From: a virus
IMG/VR virus record: IMGVR_UViG_3300048927_000364
Coordinates: 1-40,632 of that record
Length of the DNA stretch: 40,632 nucleotides
Direction: 5' to 3' (one strand)
Shown here: positions 487-7,546 of the stretch, one piece after another
How the letters are laid out: each line of letters begins with the position of its first letter
Position numbering within the stretch: position 1 is the first letter of the stretch
Translations under genes and position numbers: made by a program
The notes under the pieces: model-generated
Seen by the model: only the letters and a program-made list of their open reading frames with translations
Told to the model about the DNA's origin: nothing
Databases searched by the model: none

Positions 487-1533
487 TTAATTGGCATTCG
501 CTGCAATTAGGGGGCCAGAGGTTCGATATGTTGGCTTTCCGTCATTGCGCGTCATGTCCAATGTGTCTGCAAGATCGCGAAGATGCTCCGGGCTATACCG
601 GGCATAGACCTTTTCCGTGATCCTGCTGTTTGAGTGCCCGAGAAACTGAGCGATCCGCGTCATCGAATGACCATCTTCAGCAAGCCAGACGGCCGCCGAA
701 TGCCGGAGCATATGCGGTGAAACGTCGTCGAGCTTTGCAGCTTTGGCCGCTGCCTTCAGTCCTTTCTTGATCGACTTCACCTGAACGCCGGCCCATTCGA
801 TGACGAATGGCGAGAGCGCGGCCGCCTGGCTCGTTTTCAACTCCTTGAGCAAGGTCTCGTTCATCGGGACGGTTGCGCGGCCTTTTCGGCGTGTCCGGTC
901 GAACGGGTTGCGGAGATTTATCAGTCGGCGCTCGAAGTCCACCCGGTCCCAGGTCAATTCCAATGCCGCGGCGTTGCGGGCGCCGGTGCCAATCATCAGC
1001 AGGATCGCCAGACGGATGTGCGGCACCTTGGCCGCATCCATCAACTTCATGACCTCTTCCCGTTTCAGATACCCTTCCTTCGGATCAGGCTTCGCCGGCC
1101 GCTCGATATGCGGCGCCCGCTCAATTAGGCCGTTTTTCTCCGACCAGACCAACACCGTGCGCAAATGCCCCAGTTCGGTATGGATTGTTCCGTCCTGGAT
1201 GCCGGCCTTCCGACGCTCCTCCGTGTGAGCGCGGCAATCGAGCACGCTTATCGCCACCCCCTCCATTTTCCCAAAACGTGCTTCCATGGCCTTCCATGTA
1301 AATTTCATGGTCGTGACCACGGCGCGGCCTTCCTTGTCGATCAGGTAGGCCTTCCACAGGTCATCAACTGTCGTGCCTTTCGGCCGGGTCAGCTCCGCGT
1401 ATCGAGACGCGGCGAGGCGGGACGCCTCTTTCTGGTCTGTGGTTCCAAGGCGATAACGGCGGCGCAAGCCGTCGGGCTCGTCCCATGTGACGCAAAACTC
1501 CCCTCGGAGTCGCGTGAGTCTCCATTCTGACAT
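487..1533 (-). CDS. int: Tyrosine site-specific recombinase (phage integrase)
   Basis: This 348-residue protein has the tyrosine recombinase catalytic set: R186 in GTGARNAA, H274 and R277 in HMLRH, H300 in QFLGH, and probable nucleophile Y310 in VYARYSP. The N-terminal half would hold the arm-binding and core-binding domains. It should join attP to the tRNA-Val attB and, with the HTH protein upstream, reverse this. It is the last gene of the leftward operon, next to attL. Its ATG lies 145 bases inside the preceding gene in another frame, an unusually long overlap. The early region is therefore controlled by the leftward operator promoter at 3795-3823. Confidence 0.95.
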   Translation of the reverse strand: MSEWRLTRLRGEFCVTWDEPDGLRRRYRLGTTDQKEASRLAASRYAELTRPKGTTVDDLWKAYLIDKEGRAVVTTMKFTWKAMEARFGKMEGVAISVLDCRAHTEERRKAGIQDGTIHTELGHLRTVLVWSEKNGLIERAPHIERPAKPDPKEGYLKREEVMKLMDAAKVPHIRLAILLMIGTGARNAAALELTWDRVDFERRLINLRNPFDRTRRKGRATVPMNETLLKELKTSQAAALSPFVIEWAGVQVKSIKKGLKAAAKAAKLDDVSPHMLRHSAAVWLAEDGHSMTRIAQFLGHSNSRITEKVYARYSPEHLRDLADTLDMTRNDGKPTYRTSGPLIAANAN

Positions 1534-1688
1534 TTCTCGAACATCTCCACGTCTTCAGGTTTAATCCTCAGAAGCTTGCCGCCAAGACGAAAGGCCGGCA
1601 GCGTCCCGCAAGCGATAAGCTTGCGAACGTGACGTTCGGAGCATTCCCAATGGTCGGCTAGGCTCTTCGGAGTGAACGGCCTGGTCAT
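1389..1688 (-). CDS. Small HTH protein, probable excisionase
   Basis: The 99-residue protein begins with a MerR/excisionase-like helix-turn-helix: KSLADHWECSERHVRKLI, then a wing FRLGGKLLRIKPEDVEMF, all within residues 8-50. The last 45 residues are low in complexity and overlap the integrase start. Its ATG overlaps the stop of the upstream gene as ATGA at 1685-1688, so translation is coupled. Position directly before int suggests a recombination directionality factor. A role as a plain transcription regulator is not excluded. Confidence 0.8.
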   Translation of the reverse strand: MTRPFTPKSLADHWECSERHVRKLIACGTLPAFRLGGKLLRIKPEDVEMFEKCQNGDSRDSEGSFASHGTSPTACAAVIALEPQTRKRRPASPRLDTRS

Positions 1689-2014
1689 GGGCTCTTCTCC
1701 CCGTTATCCACAGGCGGTTCGCCCATCAGCGAATGAAGAAATATCCTCAGGACGTGCTCGCCGCCGTGTGTGCAGTCCTTGATGCTGTCGAAGAAATTTT
1801 CATCTTCAAGCGCCAGCCGCACTTTCGCCCGAACTTCATCGAGCGTCTGACATGGTTGCCGGATGACCACCATTTCCGCGGCTTCCTTCGCCTCCCATTC
1901 GCTGCGAGGGTCGGTTTGGCGATCGGTTGAAAGTTGTTTGAGGAAGGCTTCGTCCGCAGTCTTGTATTGCGAAATTAAGTCGGTAAGCGCGAAGTTCGTT
2001 TCCATCGAGGCCAT
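1685..2014 (-). CDS. Small protein, paralogue of the operon's first gene
   Basis: The start is placed at the ATG at 2014, one base after the upstream stop codon (TGAGATGG); a longer open frame exists but its extra N-terminus is only the shadow of the neighbour. The 109-residue product contains QPCQTLDEVRAKVRL, which lines up with TPCHSPDDVQAKIRY in the gene at 3321-3767, followed in both by an acidic/His stretch and LHSL or LQSL. The two are related, so this looks like an old duplication within the operon. The function is unknown. ATGA overlap joins it to the excisionase-like gene. Confidence 0.7.
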   Translation of the reverse strand: MASMETNFALTDLISQYKTADEAFLKQLSTDRQTDPRSEWEAKEAAEMVVIRQPCQTLDEVRAKVRLALEDENFFDSIKDCTHGGEHVLRIFLHSLMGEPPVDNGEKSP

Positions 2015-2015
2015 C

Positions 2016-2375
2016 TCAAACAGCTTTAGTTGCAAGGGGATTGGCGGCGAGTTCATCCAAGGTGGACTTGTTGAATTCTTGGCACCAGGCCTCAAACTGG
2101 ATAATTGTCGCAAGACGCCTCTCGCCGTCGTTGTCGAAGGTGTTAGGCCGTTCCCGAAGGGCATCGATGATGTTGCCCCTTTCTTCAGAAAGGTACTCTT
2201 GGAACTTGCCGAGGTAGGCCTCGGCGCGGGTCCGGCTTCCATCCAGACAAATGACATAGTGAAGAGCCATGTTGGCGGTCTCTTCCAGATTATCGAGGAT
2301 CCGATAGAGGCGGCAAAGGTCGTTGATTGAAAGGTCGGCCGCGTTCAGGCGGGGCGGCGTGATGTGCTGGCTCAT
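2016..2375 (-). CDS. Hypothetical protein of the leftward operon
   Basis: A 119-residue, mostly helical acidic protein with no signal peptide (for example LCRLYRILDNLEETANMALH). The start ATG overlaps the stop of the upstream Tat-signal gene (2372-2375), and its own stop is followed at once by the next start, so it is translated as part of a tightly packed operon. I do not recognise the family. Such genes are usually accessory in rhizobial prophages, and it is not needed for integration as far as known families show. Confidence 0.7.
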   Translation of the reverse strand: MSQHITPPRLNAADLSINDLCRLYRILDNLEETANMALHYVICLDGSRTRAEAYLGKFQEYLSEERGNIIDALRERPNTFDNDGERRLATIIQFEAWCQEFNKSTLDELAANPLATKAV

Positions 2376-3250
2376 TGGGCGCTCTCCAGCTTCTGGCTCT
2401 GCGCTACATCGAGGACCGACTGAATGAACTGGGCAATTTCGGCTAAGATGCCGCCGGTAGCGATCGTGTTGCCGAAAAGCTCATTCGACTGGAGTACTCG
2501 TGCCTTGATGCAGAGGCCTTCGTGTGTGAAGGCAGGGATCATGGATATCGCTGCGCAACACCGAAACACTTGTCGGTCGGCATAGGCCACGCGCAGCTGT
2601 ACCTGCCGAACGCCGGATACTTCGATCAGGCGAGCCGTTTCGGATTCGTATGCGAGAGCGAGGTCAAGGCGCTTTTCCCATATAGCGATACTGTCCTGGA
2701 GCCAGACGCGATTGCGGTCCAAAGCCTTTTCAGTGCGTCCTTTCGGTGTTTGTCGCGAATAATTGGTAATATATTCTTCCGCTTCCGTCGAAGTAATGAC
2801 TTGAAAACATTGTTTTTCATTCTTCTCTCGATATTTGCGAGATAGTCTCTTGGTAAGGTCGGCCGTATCTCGCATCATGAAACGGCCGATAATGTCGCGC
2901 TCGGCCTTGTCGTTGCGCCCATAGTCTCGATGAGCGTTAAATCCCCATAGGAGCTCTTCTGGAGCGAGAGGCCAGAGGTGGCGCCACTCGTCTGCCAGCC
3001 ACGTCAGTGCGTCTTGCGCCTCTGCCATTTCGGCACGAGCGGCTATGAGAGCATCATGAGCCTGAAGTAAGTCCGGATTTTCATGTACCCCTTCCATGCC
3101 CAAGGAAGGCTCCGCAGCGGCGTGAGCTGCTTTTGGACTGCCCAGAACTGTGGGCACCGCCGACGCCGCCGCTAACCCCGGCAGCGCCGAAAGAAAAGAT
3201 CTGCGAGTGGTGGACATAGCTTCGCTGGCGGCCGGAATCGGTCGTGTCAT
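2372..3250 (-). CDS. Tat-exported protein of unknown function
   Basis: The first 44 residues form a twin-arginine signal: STTRRSFLSAL at residues 13-23, a hydrophobic Ala/Leu/Val stretch and an AHA cleavage site near residue 44. The start at 3250 has a GGAG ribosome site 7 bases upstream. The mature part (about 248 residues) is helical and charged, with WLADEWRHLWPLAPEELLWG near residues 84-103. It would be folded in the cytoplasm and exported to the periplasm. An exported protein inside an int/xis operon is odd and suggests cargo. The molecular function is unknown. Confidence 0.75.
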   Translation of the reverse strand: MTRPIPAASEAMSTTRRSFLSALPGLAAASAVPTVLGSPKAAHAAAEPSLGMEGVHENPDLLQAHDALIAARAEMAEAQDALTWLADEWRHLWPLAPEELLWGFNAHRDYGRNDKAERDIIGRFMMRDTADLTKRLSRKYREKNEKQCFQVITSTEAEEYITNYSRQTPKGRTEKALDRNRVWLQDSIAIWEKRLDLALAYESETARLIEVSGVRQVQLRVAYADRQVFRCCAAISMIPAFTHEGLCIKARVLQSNELFGNTIATGGILAEIAQFIQSVLDVAQSQKLESAQ

Positions 3251-3320
3251 TGTCTTTCTCCAGTTTAGAAATGTTGCCGCGGATCAGCCGCAGCGCTGCA
3301 TCAGCCTGCGGACTTACGCA

Positions 3321-3767
3321 TTATGCAGGAAAAGTTTTTTCAGCGGCGATCTCTGCTTCGCGTGCGTATGCGTGTAGGGGATCCTGAAGCAGCAAGGATT
3401 GAAGCAGCCGTCGCACGCCATCCATGTCGTCGGCTAGGCCATACTGCTCGTGGCTGAGGCATTCGATCAGGCTCGATCGCTCGCCGACGCTGCCGTGCAT
3501 GAAATATCGGATCTTCGCCTGGACATCGTCGGGGCTATGGCAGGGCGTGCGGACGAGGGCATCGAAGCGCTTGACCTCGATGGCGTGCGTCTCCTCGGCT
3601 GCTGCATTATCGATTGCGACTCCGGCATTGGTGAATTGTGCTTCATCGGCGTGGACCGCGTCTAAGTGAGCGTTGATCGCAGAGGAAACATCGCTGCGTC
3701 GCAAACGGTCAAACAGCAGGGTGCCGGCGATTTCTGAATTCAGTAGCTTTTTTGGGTGCGATTCCAT
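3321..3767 (-). CDS. First gene of the leftward operon, unknown function
   Basis: A 148-residue acidic soluble protein. Residues 75-130 contain TPCHSPDDVQAKIRY and LLQSLLLQDP, matching the shorter protein at 1685-2014. The ATG at 3767 has GGAG 5 bases upstream and lies about 20 bases after the predicted start of the operator-controlled promoter at 3795-3823. As the first gene under repressor control it could be an early leftward phage function, but no known family is visible. Confidence 0.75.
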   Translation of the reverse strand: MESHPKKLLNSEIAGTLLFDRLRRSDVSSAINAHLDAVHADEAQFTNAGVAIDNAAAEETHAIEVKRFDALVRTPCHSPDDVQAKIRYFMHGSVGERSSLIECLSHEQYGLADDMDGVRRLLQSLLLQDPLHAYAREAEIAAEKTFPA

Positions 3768-3794
3768 GTGCGCTCCATCGGTTGAGATGGAGCA

Positions 3795-3823
3795 AACATA
3801 TCGGATGAAATTTCAGTCGTCAA
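3795..3823 (-). promoter_or_regulatory. Leftward promoter (PL-like) of the int operon
   Basis: On the minus strand TTGACG (3823-3818) is separated by exactly 17 bases from TATGTT (3800-3795). An operator TGAAATTTCA (3806-3815) lies wholly in the spacer. The predicted transcript would start near 3788 and give the gene at 3767 a leader of about 20 bases with its own ribosome site. Confidence 0.75.
3806..3815. promoter_or_regulatory. Operator OL1: TGAAATTTCA
   Basis: A perfect 10-base palindrome between -35 and -10 of the leftward promoter. Binding here would block RNA polymerase directly. The same motif recurs at 3835-3844 and in degenerate form on the other side of the repressor gene. Confidence 0.7.
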
Positions 3824-3832
3824 TTATATTTG

Positions 3833-3846
3833 AATGAAATTTCATT
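3833..3846. promoter_or_regulatory. Operator OL2: AATGAAATTTCATT
   Basis: A perfect 14-base palindrome centred 29 bases from OL1 and upstream of the leftward promoter. It overlaps the repressor stop codon (3842-3844). Spacing near three helical turns would let two repressor dimers bind on the same DNA face. Confidence 0.7.
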
Positions 3847-4663
3847 TGACCAATTGAAAGGGATGGATGTCGCGGAGGATTCTGACCACAATACCCCTCA
3901 CCCTTATCGCATAGCCTCCTGCATCGTAGCAGTTTCGATCCTCACTATCGGGAATGTCGGTAATATTGATTGTCAAACGGCGCGTGGGATTCCTCGTATC
4001 TTCGCCACTTTCATTTAAGGAAACGCCATTTGGATGGCCAAGGAGATGGATACGAGCGCCATCGCGCTGCACTATTCGCAGGCTGTTTTCCGAAAGTCCA
4101 ACGGCAGGTAGTTCAACTCCACAATAAACTATGGAGCCGTGCTGAAGTGGGATGGATCGATTGTCCTTTCCAAACCTTCCTGGGCCTGCAACGGTGGCTA
4201 TATCGCCATCTTGTATACCTAAGGCCGAAAGCGAGCGATCAGCAATGAAAACGCCAAAAACGGGCCATTCGGGATAATCCATACTTCTAAACAGGCTGTA
4301 GTAGCGCTCGGTTGACGCGATCCTATTGCGTCGTGTTTCACGATCTTCAAAAACACCGGTTTTGGCCTCTTCTGTTATGTTCATCCAATGCGCAGGGCCT
4401 GCTTGATGATGATCACGAGGCGTTTCTTCCGTCGTTTCAAATGTGTGATCTGGATCGATGCTGGCGCCTACCAGATAAGCAAGCGAACATTGAAGAACAC
4501 CAGTAAGTTTCTCGAGCGTTGCTAATCGAGGACTGCCAGAATTACCTGACAAAATATCGGTTATCGCCGATCGGCCTAGGCCAGCTTCGACGGAGGCAGA
4601 TGCAGCGCTCTTCCCAAGCCTTTCAAGGCGACTGCGGATTCTTCCGGATAAATCGTTTTCCAT
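3842..4663 (-). CDS. Phage repressor, HTH plus S24-like C-terminus
   Basis: The start is taken at the ATG at 4663, preceded by AAGGAAAG, giving 273 residues; a longer frame to 4723 lacks a ribosome site. Residues 5-60 form a Xre/CI-type helix-turn-helix (SASVEAGLGRSAITDILSG, then LATLEKLTGVLQCSLAYLVG). The C-terminal half has an S24/LexA-like pattern (VFIADRSLSALGIQDGDIA, later GIVVRILRDI), but I cannot identify a convincing Ser/Lys cleavage pair. The gene lies between two operator pairs and is transcribed toward OL. It should maintain lysogeny by shutting both flanking promoters. Confidence 0.85.
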   Translation of the reverse strand: MENDLSGRIRSRLERLGKSAASASVEAGLGRSAITDILSGNSGSPRLATLEKLTGVLQCSLAYLVGASIDPDHTFETTEETPRDHHQAGPAHWMNITEEAKTGVFEDRETRRNRIASTERYYSLFRSMDYPEWPVFGVFIADRSLSALGIQDGDIATVAGPGRFGKDNRSIPLQHGSIVYCGVELPAVGLSENSLRIVQRDGARIHLLGHPNGVSLNESGEDTRNPTRRLTINITDIPDSEDRNCYDAGGYAIRVRGIVVRILRDIHPFQLVK

Positions 4664-4702
4664 GATGTCTACTTTCCTTGATTGCGTAGGAAAAATCAAA
4701 AC

Positions 4703-4712
4703 CGAAATTTCA
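4703..4712. promoter_or_regulatory. Operator OR2: CGAAATTTCA
   Basis: Nine of ten bases match the TGAAATTTCA palindrome. It lies between the repressor start and the rightward promoter, so it may also govern repressor synthesis. Its centre is 32 bases from the next site. Confidence 0.6.
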
Positions 4713-4723
4713 GTAGCATTCAC

Positions 4724-4751
4724 TTGCTAATGAATGATTTTTCAGTATGAT
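4724..4751 (+). promoter_or_regulatory. Rightward early promoter (PR-like)
   Basis: TTGCTA (4724-4729), a 16-base spacer and TATGAT (4746-4751). An operator-like TGATTTTTCA lies in the spacer, mirroring the leftward promoter. The -10 ends only 9 bases before the ATG at 4761, so the mRNA would start at or within a few bases of the start codon. Confidence 0.7.
4735..4744. promoter_or_regulatory. Operator OR1: TGATTTTTCA
   Basis: A degenerate copy (8 of 10) of the TGAAATTTCA palindrome, placed directly before the -10 of the rightward promoter. The weaker match compared with OL1 may give different repressor affinities on the two sides. Confidence 0.5.
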
Positions 4752-4760
4752 TAAAAAATC

Positions 4761-5033
4761 ATGGAAAACGAGCTCAGAAAAATTCTCCTCGACACCGCGT
4801 GCGCCTTTGCGAAAGCATCCGACTGCGCCGTGTCCACCGTTTCGCGCCGGGTGAAGAATAATCCTAACTTCTTCTCCCGTATCGAAGACACCACGACAAG
4901 CTTCACCTTGAGGACATACGACGAGGTCATGCGGTGGTTCGCTTCAAATTGGCCCGAGAAGAAGCAGTTACCGCTCGGCTTGATGAAGTGGATGGTTGAC
5001 ACCAGCTATACCAAAGACGAGGTCTCCGCATGA
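4761..5033 (+). CDS. Cro-like early regulator candidate, leaderless
   Basis: This 90-residue protein is the first gene rightward from the repressor. Residues 8-45 could form a helix-turn-helix (AFAKASDCAVSTVSRRVKNN), followed by a second helical part DEVMRWFASNWP. No ribosome site precedes the ATG, and the predicted transcript start lies about 3 bases upstream, as in leaderless phage repressor mRNAs. Position opposite the repressor suggests a Cro-type role, but sequence alone does not prove DNA binding. ATGA overlap couples it to the next gene. Confidence 0.7.
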   Translation: MENELRKILLDTACAFAKASDCAVSTVSRRVKNNPNFFSRIEDTTTSFTLRTYDEVMRWFASNWPEKKQLPLGLMKWMVDTSYTKDEVSA

Positions 5034-5284
5034 CGGCCCCTCGCTCACACACACGCGGATGCGCGCGGCGCACAACGAACGTCGCCAATGATGATCTTCC
5101 GTCGCTGGAAGCTCAAATTGAGGCTTGGGACGCATATGTCTCCGCGCAAAGCTTGGCTCAGTCGACGGGCGATGTTGAGGATGGCATTGCTGCCGGTCGC
5201 GCATGGCGTCGGTGGCTTGATCTCTTCATGACGTCCGTGCAGCGGAACTTCGTCGACGGCCCGCGCGGAGGAGTAATTGGATGA
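5030..5284 (+). CDS. Small early protein, unknown function
   Basis: The 84-residue product has a basic N-terminus and a central acidic helical part (LPSLEAQIEAWDAYVSAQSL, later GRAWRRWLDLFM). Its start and stop overlap both neighbours by four bases (ATGA), placing it firmly in the early operon between the Cro-like gene and the helicase. The family is not recognised; a helicase-loading or regulatory role would be guesswork. Confidence 0.7.
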   Translation: MTAPRSHTRGCARRTTNVANDDLPSLEAQIEAWDAYVSAQSLAQSTGDVEDGIAAGRAWRRWLDLFMTSVQRNFVDGPRGGVIG

Positions 5285-6708
5285 CGGCTGCGCTGGCCTC
5301 TAATTTCATTGCTGAGATCGAGCAAGAAATTCTCGGGTCTTTGCTGATGGTCAGCGGCGTGACGACGGTGCTGGGTGTCGTAAGGCCCGAGCATTTCGTT
5401 GAGCCCTTGCATCGCCGTATATTCGAAAACATGCTCCTGGGGCACGATCGATACGGCAGCTCCAGCATCGCCATCGTGTTCAAGTTGTTTCCTGAAGACG
5501 AGGCAGCACAGTGGAGCAAGTCGCTTGGGCGCCCCCTGTCTGCATATCTAGCCGCTCTCGCTTCGAACACCGTTCACGGCGTTGCCGGGTTTAAAAAAAG
5601 TATCCCAAATCTCCTTTCGCAATCCGCGCGGATAGGTCTGGCAGTCGAGGCCGAAAACATCGCGGCTGCGGCGAATGACCCTGGCGTCGACCCGAGCGCA
5701 CTGATCCGCAACGCAACGCGGGCATTCGACGATATCGCATCCAGACTTCGTGGCAGCAATCGCGGCCGGACCCGCCACTCTCTGCACGAGGCTGCTACCG
5801 CCGCGCTGATCGACGTGGAAACCGCCATGTTCCGCGGCGACGGCTTGACCGGCGTCACGTGGGGACTGAGCGAGGTAAACCGCTCGACGGGCGGATTGCA
5901 GCGCGGCGAAATGACTGTGCTTGGCGCCCGACCCTCAATGGGCAAGACTGCCGTCGGTCTTTCCGTCGCCATCAAGGCTGCCAAGAAAGGGCACGGCGTC
6001 GCGTTCATGTCGCTGGAGATGGGCGCCAAGCCCCTGTCGTTGCGCGCCATGACCGATATCGCCTTCGACTGGAACGTGCGCGTCCCCTACAGCGATTTGA
6101 TTACCGGCAAGGTCGATCCGAAAGATCTTGAGGCTATCCGCTCCGCAAATCAGGATCTGGACGCAATGCCGCTCTGGATCGAAGAGCAGTCCGGTATGTC
6201 CATTTCGGACATTGCCGTGAAGTTAGAGCGGATCAAGGACGTTGCCGAGCGCAGCGGGCACACGATCGATTTGCTTGTCGTCGACTACCTGCAGCTCGTC
6301 GCGCCGTCATCGCGGTACCAAGGCAATCGTACAGCCGAGATTACCGAGATATCGGCTGGCCTGCGAAACCTCTGCAGGGAAGCTGGCGTGTCGTTGCTGG
6401 CGCTGTCGCAGCTTTCGCGCCAGGTCGAAACGCGTGAGGACAAGCGTCCGATGCTCTCCGATCTTCGCGAATCTGGTGCGATCGAGCAAGACGCCGACAC
6501 CGTCATCTTCCTCTTCAGGGAAGCCTACTACCTGTCGAAGGGGAAGGGGAAGGATGCCGACGCAGAGATGGAGCGCCTCGATCGACTAGAGCAGGTAGAG
6601 AACAAGCTCGAATTCATCATCGCCAAGCAGCGCAACGGACCCGTCAGGACCGTGGATCTATTCATCGATATCGCCTCGTCGGCGGTGCGAAGCGCTGCGA
6701 GGATCTGA
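5281..6708 (+). CDS. dnaB: DnaB-type replicative helicase
   Basis: At 475 residues it has the normal DnaB length. The N-terminal domain (residues 9-110, EQEILGSLLMVSG and FVEPLHRRIFENM) is followed by a RecA-like ATPase with Walker A GARPSMGKTA near residues 214-223, Walker B DLLVVDYLQLV near 330-340, and the arginine-finger part LRESGAIEQDADTVIFLFRE. It unwinds DNA at the phage fork with ATP. Lying before the initiator-like gene, it suggests theta-type replication using a phage-owned helicase. The start overlaps the upstream stop as ATGA. Confidence 0.95.
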   Translation: MTAALASNFIAEIEQEILGSLLMVSGVTTVLGVVRPEHFVEPLHRRIFENMLLGHDRYGSSSIAIVFKLFPEDEAAQWSKSLGRPLSAYLAALASNTVHGVAGFKKSIPNLLSQSARIGLAVEAENIAAAANDPGVDPSALIRNATRAFDDIASRLRGSNRGRTRHSLHEAATAALIDVETAMFRGDGLTGVTWGLSEVNRSTGGLQRGEMTVLGARPSMGKTAVGLSVAIKAAKKGHGVAFMSLEMGAKPLSLRAMTDIAFDWNVRVPYSDLITGKVDPKDLEAIRSANQDLDAMPLWIEEQSGMSISDIAVKLERIKDVAERSGHTIDLLVVDYLQLVAPSSRYQGNRTAEITEISAGLRNLCREAGVSLLALSQLSRQVETREDKRPMLSDLRESGAIEQDADTVIFLFREAYYLSKGKGKDADAEMERLDRLEQVENKLEFIIAKQRNGPVRTVDLFIDIASSAVRSAARI

Positions 6709-6712
6709 CCAG

Positions 6713-7546
6713 ATGAAGCAGTCAGCTCAACTTAAGGTCAAGAACTGGGAACAGTTTCAGCACTACAAAGACCGCAATCCGCCGTGGATTAAGCTGCATT
6801 TTGCCCTGCTTTCCAGCGAGGACTGGGTGACGCTAGACGATGCTAGCAAGCTGCTAGCAGTTGTGTGCATGCTGATCGCGTCCCGAAACAATGGGATGGT
6901 GCCGAATAATCCTGCCTACCTCAAGCGGGTTGCATACCTAGATCGCGTTCCAAAGCTTAAGCCTTTGATTGATTGCGGTTTTCTTGAAGAAATGCAAGCG
7001 GATGATAGCACGTTGCAAGCGGATGCTAGCGGTGCGCAAGCGGATGCTAGACCAGAGACAGAGACAGAGGAAGATAAGAAAGAATCTATGTCCGAAACGA
7101 GTTCGGACGCTGCGCCAAAAAAATCAAAACGGGTGAGCTATCCGGATGCCTTCGAGGCCTTTTGGAAAGCGTACCCAACGACGGTGAACATGTCGAAGAA
7201 GGAAGCCTTCGACGAGTGGAAGAAGCTCGACGAGCAAGATCGGCAAGCTTGCCAAGCCGGCATTGCCGGATATTGCGCCTTCCTCAAGAGCAATCCCAAT
7301 CATCCGACCATCCACGCTTGCCGGTTCATCAGCAAGCGTCGTTTCGAGGGTCATGCCGAGGCGCAGGCAGCACCGGTCGTCGATGTTGCCGTTTGGACGA
7401 AACGCTTGAACTACGCCCGGTCGAAACGGATCTGGGACTCGCTGAAATGGGGGGCGTTGCCGCACACGCCGGGATGCCTCGCCCCCGCAACCCTCCTCCA
7501 ACCCGAAGACGGCGCCGGCTGGCGCGAGTGGGAGCAGGCAGCATGA
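6713..7546 (+). CDS. Phage replication initiator-like protein
   Basis: The 277-residue protein has an N-terminal winged-helix-like domain (residues 1-90, NWEQFQHYKDRNPPWIKLH, typical of phage replisome organisers) and a C-terminal domain beginning YPDAFEAFWKAYP, then KKEAFDEWKKL and HACRFISKRRFEG. The linker carries a QADDSTL-QADASGA-QADARPE repeat. The two-domain form and its place after the helicase fit a lambda O or DnaD-like role: binding the origin and recruiting DnaB. The repeated DNA in the linker may be that origin. The start is four bases after the helicase stop. Confidence 0.8.
   Translation: MKQSAQLKVKNWEQFQHYKDRNPPWIKLHFALLSSEDWVTLDDASKLLAVVCMLIASRNNGMVPNNPAYLKRVAYLDRVPKLKPLIDCGFLEEMQADDSTLQADASGAQADARPETETEEDKKESMSETSSDAAPKKSKRVSYPDAFEAFWKAYPTTVNMSKKEAFDEWKKLDEQDRQACQAGIAGYCAFLKSNPNHPTIHACRFISKRRFEGHAEAQAAPVVDVAVWTKRLNYARSKRIWDSLKWGALPHTPGCLAPATLLQPEDGAGWREWEQAA
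6994..7056. repeat. Three 21-bp iteron-like repeats in the initiator gene
   Basis: GCAAGCGGATG begins at 6994, 7015 and 7036, a strict 21-base period; the units continue ATAGCA, CTAGCG and CTAGAC. A purine- and A-rich tract follows (7057-7130). Iterons within the initiator gene followed by an easily melted tract are the layout of lambda-type origins. The repeat is in frame (7 codons), so protein-level repetition is the alternative reading. Confidence 0.55.

Follow-up and report, generated by a model that had tools for sequence, protein, structure and literature searches.

The segment at positions 3,795–4,751 of the window (the whole 40,632-base viral stretch that we analysed) is very probably the region that controls immunity in a temperate phage, where dimers of a 273-residue repressor would bind four operators of the AMTGAWWWWTCAKT type and silence two divergent promoters, PL and PR (Table 1). 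The hosts of the phage are very probably alphaproteobacteria, and its nearest named relatives are rhizobial. An earlier reading made from the letters of the window (the sequence-only reading) had proposed an OL/OR switch here, and this proposal held: four sites flank the repressor gene, with one of them inside each predicted outward promoter, and they are matched in six relatives.

Table 1. Coordinates of the predicted features of the immunity region and its neighbourhood in the window
Feature	Position	Strand	Description
Leftward genes under PL	487..3767	-	ORF 3321-3767; Tat-motif ORF 2372-3250; ORF 2016-2375; xis-like 1389-1688; integrase 487-1533
PL leader hairpin	3772..3793	-	5' end of predicted PL transcript; 3' arm with GGAG ribosome-binding site of ORF starting at 3767
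Leftward promoter PL (predicted)	3795..3823	-	TTGACG-17-TATGTT (3823-3795); 3806 in spacer
Outer left operator OL1 (candidate)	3806..3815	none	TGAAATTTCA, in PL spacer; 22.3 bits, matrix of six other loci
Inner left operator OL2 (candidate)	3835..3844	none	TGAAATTTCA, overlapping repressor stop codon; 24.3 bits, top score of window
Repressor, 273 aa	3842..4663	-	HTH_3 N-terminal domain; LexA/UmuD-like C-terminal domain; R196 in place of catalytic lysine
Place of third right operator of relatives	4668..4677	none	35 bp from inner site; empty here (-14.9 bits)
Inner right operator OR2 (candidate)	4703..4712	none	CGAAATTTCA; 18.7 bits; counterpart in 6/6 relatives
Rightward promoter PR (predicted)	4724..4751	+	TTGCTA-16-TATGAT; 4735 in spacer; ATG nine bases after
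Outer right operator OR1 (candidate)	4735..4744	none	TGATTTTTCA, in PR spacer; 23.8 bits, second in window
Cro-position gene, 90 aa	4761..5033	+	PHROG 7669; predicted five-helix HTH-like protein
Rightward replication genes	5281..7546	+	DnaB-like helicase 5281-6708; replication protein 6713-7546

Exact matches to TGAAATTTCA occurred in the window only at 3806 and 3835, the perfect left pair of the sequence-only reading, and the right copies that it had called degenerate differ from this 10-mer by one mismatch (4703) and two mismatches (4735). The whole-window search that it proposed confirmed the exact left pair and gave no enrichment of matches with up to two mismatches (16 found versus 17.3 expected). 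The letters alone are therefore weak proof for the right sites, and we accepted these because of their position and conservation. The pattern YGAWWWWTCR was seen twice in each flank, versus 0.02–0.07 expected.

Relatives were found by alignment of the N-terminal 84 residues of the repressor. Searches with the full-length repressor returned no relatives from viral collections, genome collections or phage records because the search patterns sat in variable parts, which the N-terminal alignment cured. A genome search at the family level added one more close relative (L026) besides the already known locus of Rhizobium sp. Leaf453 (L014), and a genus-level search added no further relative. Six relatives are independent (L010/L015, L014, L016, L019, L020 and L021; L011, L012, L017 and L018 are of the same type as L014), so that with the window seven loci carry this repressor type, a modest sample. 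All six have a pair of sites on either side of the repressor at matching places. The centre distances of 29 and 32 bp in the window were as previously stated, while their description as about three helical turns did not hold for the left pair: 29 bp is 2.8 turns, and the left spacing is 28 or 29 bp (about 2.7–2.8 turns) in all seven loci. On the right it is 30–32 bp in six of the seven and 22 bp in L016.

When a symmetric matrix built from the other six loci was scored on the window (leave-one-out; the poor inner right site of L019 entered the matrix set by position), the four sites came out on top (Table 1), and the next-best place in the 40.6-kb window reached 11.2 bits, a gap of more than 7 bits. 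The four sites likewise took the first four ranks in every one of the six relatives, in L019 by a narrow margin, and the consensus is roughly AMTGAWWWWTCAKT. By the same matrix, the idea that stronger left sites give tighter control of int and xis was not supported: the outer right site scored higher than the outer left one. Nor are the right sites simply weaker, as TGATTTTTCA is the commonest form and serves relatives as the outer left site. L010 and L020 share with the window a weak site, GGAAAAATCA, which in the window stands at 4689 and 14 bp away from its inner right site, yet this site is not general and we rejected it.

The symmetry of two plus two sites is present in the window but is not general. 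A third right site lies at the repressor start, exactly 35 bp beyond the inner site, in L014, L016, L019 and L020 and, in weak form, in L021, and the 35-bp site also occurs in loci with other operators; at that place the window and L010 have none. As this site is common in relatives and lost here, the arrangement of the window looks, by comparison, like a reduced form of three plus two. Within repressor codons 4–7 (4646–4655) there is a weak operator-like stretch, GGATAAATCG (9.3 bits, rank 7 in the window), which is common to the window and L010, the latter likewise without a third right site.

The promoters were inferred with an E. coli-type consensus, and as the sequence-only reading had it, one copy per side lies between the -35 and the -10 of a predicted outward promoter. 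Throughout the seven loci, the outer left site follows a TTGACG whose spacer is 17 bases long, and the outer right site stands in a PR-like pair; the mean promoter scores (of 12) were 9.0 and 8.1, respectively, versus 6.45 in shuffled flanks. Scored as promoters, the inner sites of the seven loci were close to background. This includes the candidates for the repressor's own promoter at the inner right site, none of which could be assigned. A possible second leftward promoter at about 3835 (TGGTCA-18-TATAAT) is absent from relatives and was rejected as a shared feature.

The PR layout extended to 26 of 26 loci, Rivra and phiLM21 among them, each with a candidate operator in a 16–18-base spacer (the phiLM21 PR palindrome was chosen separately and did not score as a palindrome in the 26-locus survey). 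Left pairs with other letters are mostly 29 bp apart, with 30 bp in L013 and 32 bp in Rivra; L056 and L065 have fewer sites, and the left side of L049 and L050 is too noisy to judge. In phiLM21 (L034), GTAGCG-CGCTAC palindromes at 3912, 3947 and 5252 lie in the left and right promoter spacers and are candidate operators of that phage. In Rivra (L022), the annotated start of RIVRA_53 (3956–4243) falls inside the promoter region, and a likelier start is the ATG at 4001, six bases past TATAAG.

In the window (4746–4763) and in 26 loci, the PR -10 ends 5–11 bases ahead of an ATG, and the first rightward message is thus probably leaderless. This ATG opens the gene in the cro position, which is marked by PHROG 7669 genes in 25 viral contigs. 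The model of its 90-residue product has five helices (pLDDT 88); among structures, it is matched best mostly by regulators of the XRE type, all weakly (E >1), and a role as Cro is plausible. The repressor and cro-position genes open with nearly identical bases, ATGGAAAACGA (4653–4663 and 4761–4771), an inverted repeat of start codons that extends to 15 bp in L014.

The repressor reading frame is as first described, and the site at 3835–3844 overlaps its stop codon. Its C-terminal part has a weak sequence match to LexA and a fold match to LexA/UmuD (predicted model of modest confidence, mean pLDDT 69). In the seven loci the serine of D-x-S144 is invariant, and LexA K156 aligns with an invariant arginine, R196. 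Around residue 103, T, V, I or S takes the place of the alanine in the Ala-Gly cleavage site, and all seven relatives lack an Ala-Gly pair; the repressor alignment contains neither a self-cleavage site of the lambda CI type nor a Ser-Lys dyad. Judged from this alignment, the repressor presumably does not self-cleave by the usual route.

The gene layout agrees with the proposed division of the regulon, with int, xis and a Tat-motif gene in the leftward run and dnaB and a replication protein on the right. The Tat-motif ORF (292 residues) has a twin-arginine motif, TTRRSFL, at its start and no Pfam or PHROG match; a start homologous to its own comes straight after PL in L019. The predicted PL transcript begins with a hairpin, CTCCATC-loop-GATGGAG, whose 3' arm contains the first gene's ribosome-binding site. 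It was found in ten loci (window, L010, L014, L016, L019, L020, L021, L026, L002 and L003; z -3.2 to -5.1), several of them with unrelated first genes, and it matched no Rfam family. L026 keeps all seven pairs despite changes on both sides of three pairs, which are compensating. The hairpin is retained while first genes and repressors differ between loci.

Can the sites be assigned to the repressor? Natural exchanges between phages bear on this. L002 and L003 have a DnaB 73–76% identical to that of the window and a similar first left gene, and they carry other repressors; neither flank of the repressor has such sites. Where the recognition helix reads GKTAVRD (L026 and L042) instead of GRSAITD, the operators are GGGGAAATTTCC (L026) and ATGGATTTATCCAT (L042). 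In these comparisons the operators travel with the repressor, both sides together. A different assignment, that the cro-position protein is the main ligand of the palindromes or competes for them with the repressor as Cro does with CI, draws on its small size, its HTH-like character, its position at the PR start in 25 loci and a putative recognition helix that varies in part between loci with different operators. However, the cro-position helix of L042 is nearly that of the window (STVSRRVKND), yet its operators follow the different repressor helix, and in structure the cro-position protein resembles XRE proteins weakly. We hold this assignment to be possible but rather doubtful; its second half, competition, is compatible with operators bound by the repressor. 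A host regulator that controls the prophage is very improbable as the owner of these sites: TGA-N4-TCA palindromes are short and could fit other regulators, but the sites change along with the phage repressor between phages of similar replication genes, and nearly all copies per locus sit at the repressor flanks. Chance AT-rich palindromes, with which the absence of a window-wide excess of the 10-mer would agree, have a negligible probability and are refuted by the comparative result, since doubled sites in each flank recur across the seven loci at an almost constant left spacing and the four sites stand clear of any other place in the window. Sequence and comparison establish that the sites exist, that they are conserved, that they stand in the promoter context described and that they are exchanged together with the repressor.

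On the preferred reading, that of a repressor acting at all four operators, a dimer bound at an outer site, between -35 and -10, would block RNA polymerase. Silencing of PL would turn off int, xis and their neighbours, and silencing of PR would turn off the cro-position gene and then dnaB. The inner sites would probably take a second dimer cooperatively, on the left at the fixed distance of 28–29 bp and on the right at 32 bp, in the region upstream of the repressor gene itself, where autoregulation may occur. A loop between OL and OR may form, and the cro-position protein may act as an antagonist; like binding itself, these steps are inferred. As a tentative and rather uncertain addition, there may be a translational layer (a leaderless PR message that begins at its AUG or a few bases ahead of it, and a PL hairpin that sequesters the first gene's ribosome-binding site), together with a repressor that is not SOS-cleavable, its LexA fold retained for dimer contacts and its peptidase lost. 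If the peptidase was lost, an antirepressor or some other signal would be required for induction.

Switches of this kind are already known from lambda, from N15 and phiKO2 and from rhizobial phage 16-3. Lambda has three plus three operators, about 23–24 bp apart. Like lambda, the window has a repressor gene flanked by candidate operators that overlap predicted divergent early promoters, an HTH repressor with a LexA-like C-terminal fold in its model, and a second, HTH-like gene first on PR; unlike lambda, it has spacings of 29 and 32 bp and an arginine in place of the peptidase lysine. An FNR-like reading of the palindromes was set aside because of their spacing. In the immB region of N15 and phiKO2, three OR sites lie between repressor and cro, and there are two OL sites (PMC4488713), a count equal to that of most relatives of our phage; their operators differ from those of the window, and the N15 OL sites are upstream of repA (PMC4488713). 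PY54, of the same group as N15, produces cro mRNA without a leader and retains only OR3 after loss of its other OR sites (PMC4488713), whereas in the window two OR sites remain and the lost one is that at the start of the repressor. The C repressor of 16-3 has oL1, oL2, oR1 and oR2 (cited in PMC12429752), two plus two on the two sides as in the window. The letters are different: the PR of 16-3 is printed as TTGACGACTCATCACAACAATTGTAG, TTGACG at -35 followed by an ACAA-TTGT palindrome (PMC3694467), versus TGAWWWWTCA here. A protein search with the repressor in a phage collection that may not include 16-3 gave no repressor match. Agrobacterium phage Rivra and Sinorhizobium phage phiLM21 also carry palindromes in the PL and PR spacers (GTGGGATGYRTCCCAC and GTAGCGATAATCGCTAC, respectively), both unlike those of the window and with repressors of other types.

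New here are the operator letters, a LexA-like repressor domain with no catalytic lysine, a PR message that is probably leaderless, and a conserved hairpin that covers the first ribosome-binding site on the left. The last two features, and the HTH-like gene in the cro position, had gone unremarked in the sequence-only reading. For phiLM21-like prophages, a 2025 paper (PMC12429752) reports no match to operators of either the lambda or the 16-3 type and gives their own operators as not found. The layout described above, a palindrome in a PR spacer 5–11 bases before ATG with left pairs 28–32 bp apart, can serve as a search and provides rhizobial and other phages of this group with candidate operators that can be tested. 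As it does so in 26 loci, including phiLM21, immunity groups could be predictable from sequence.
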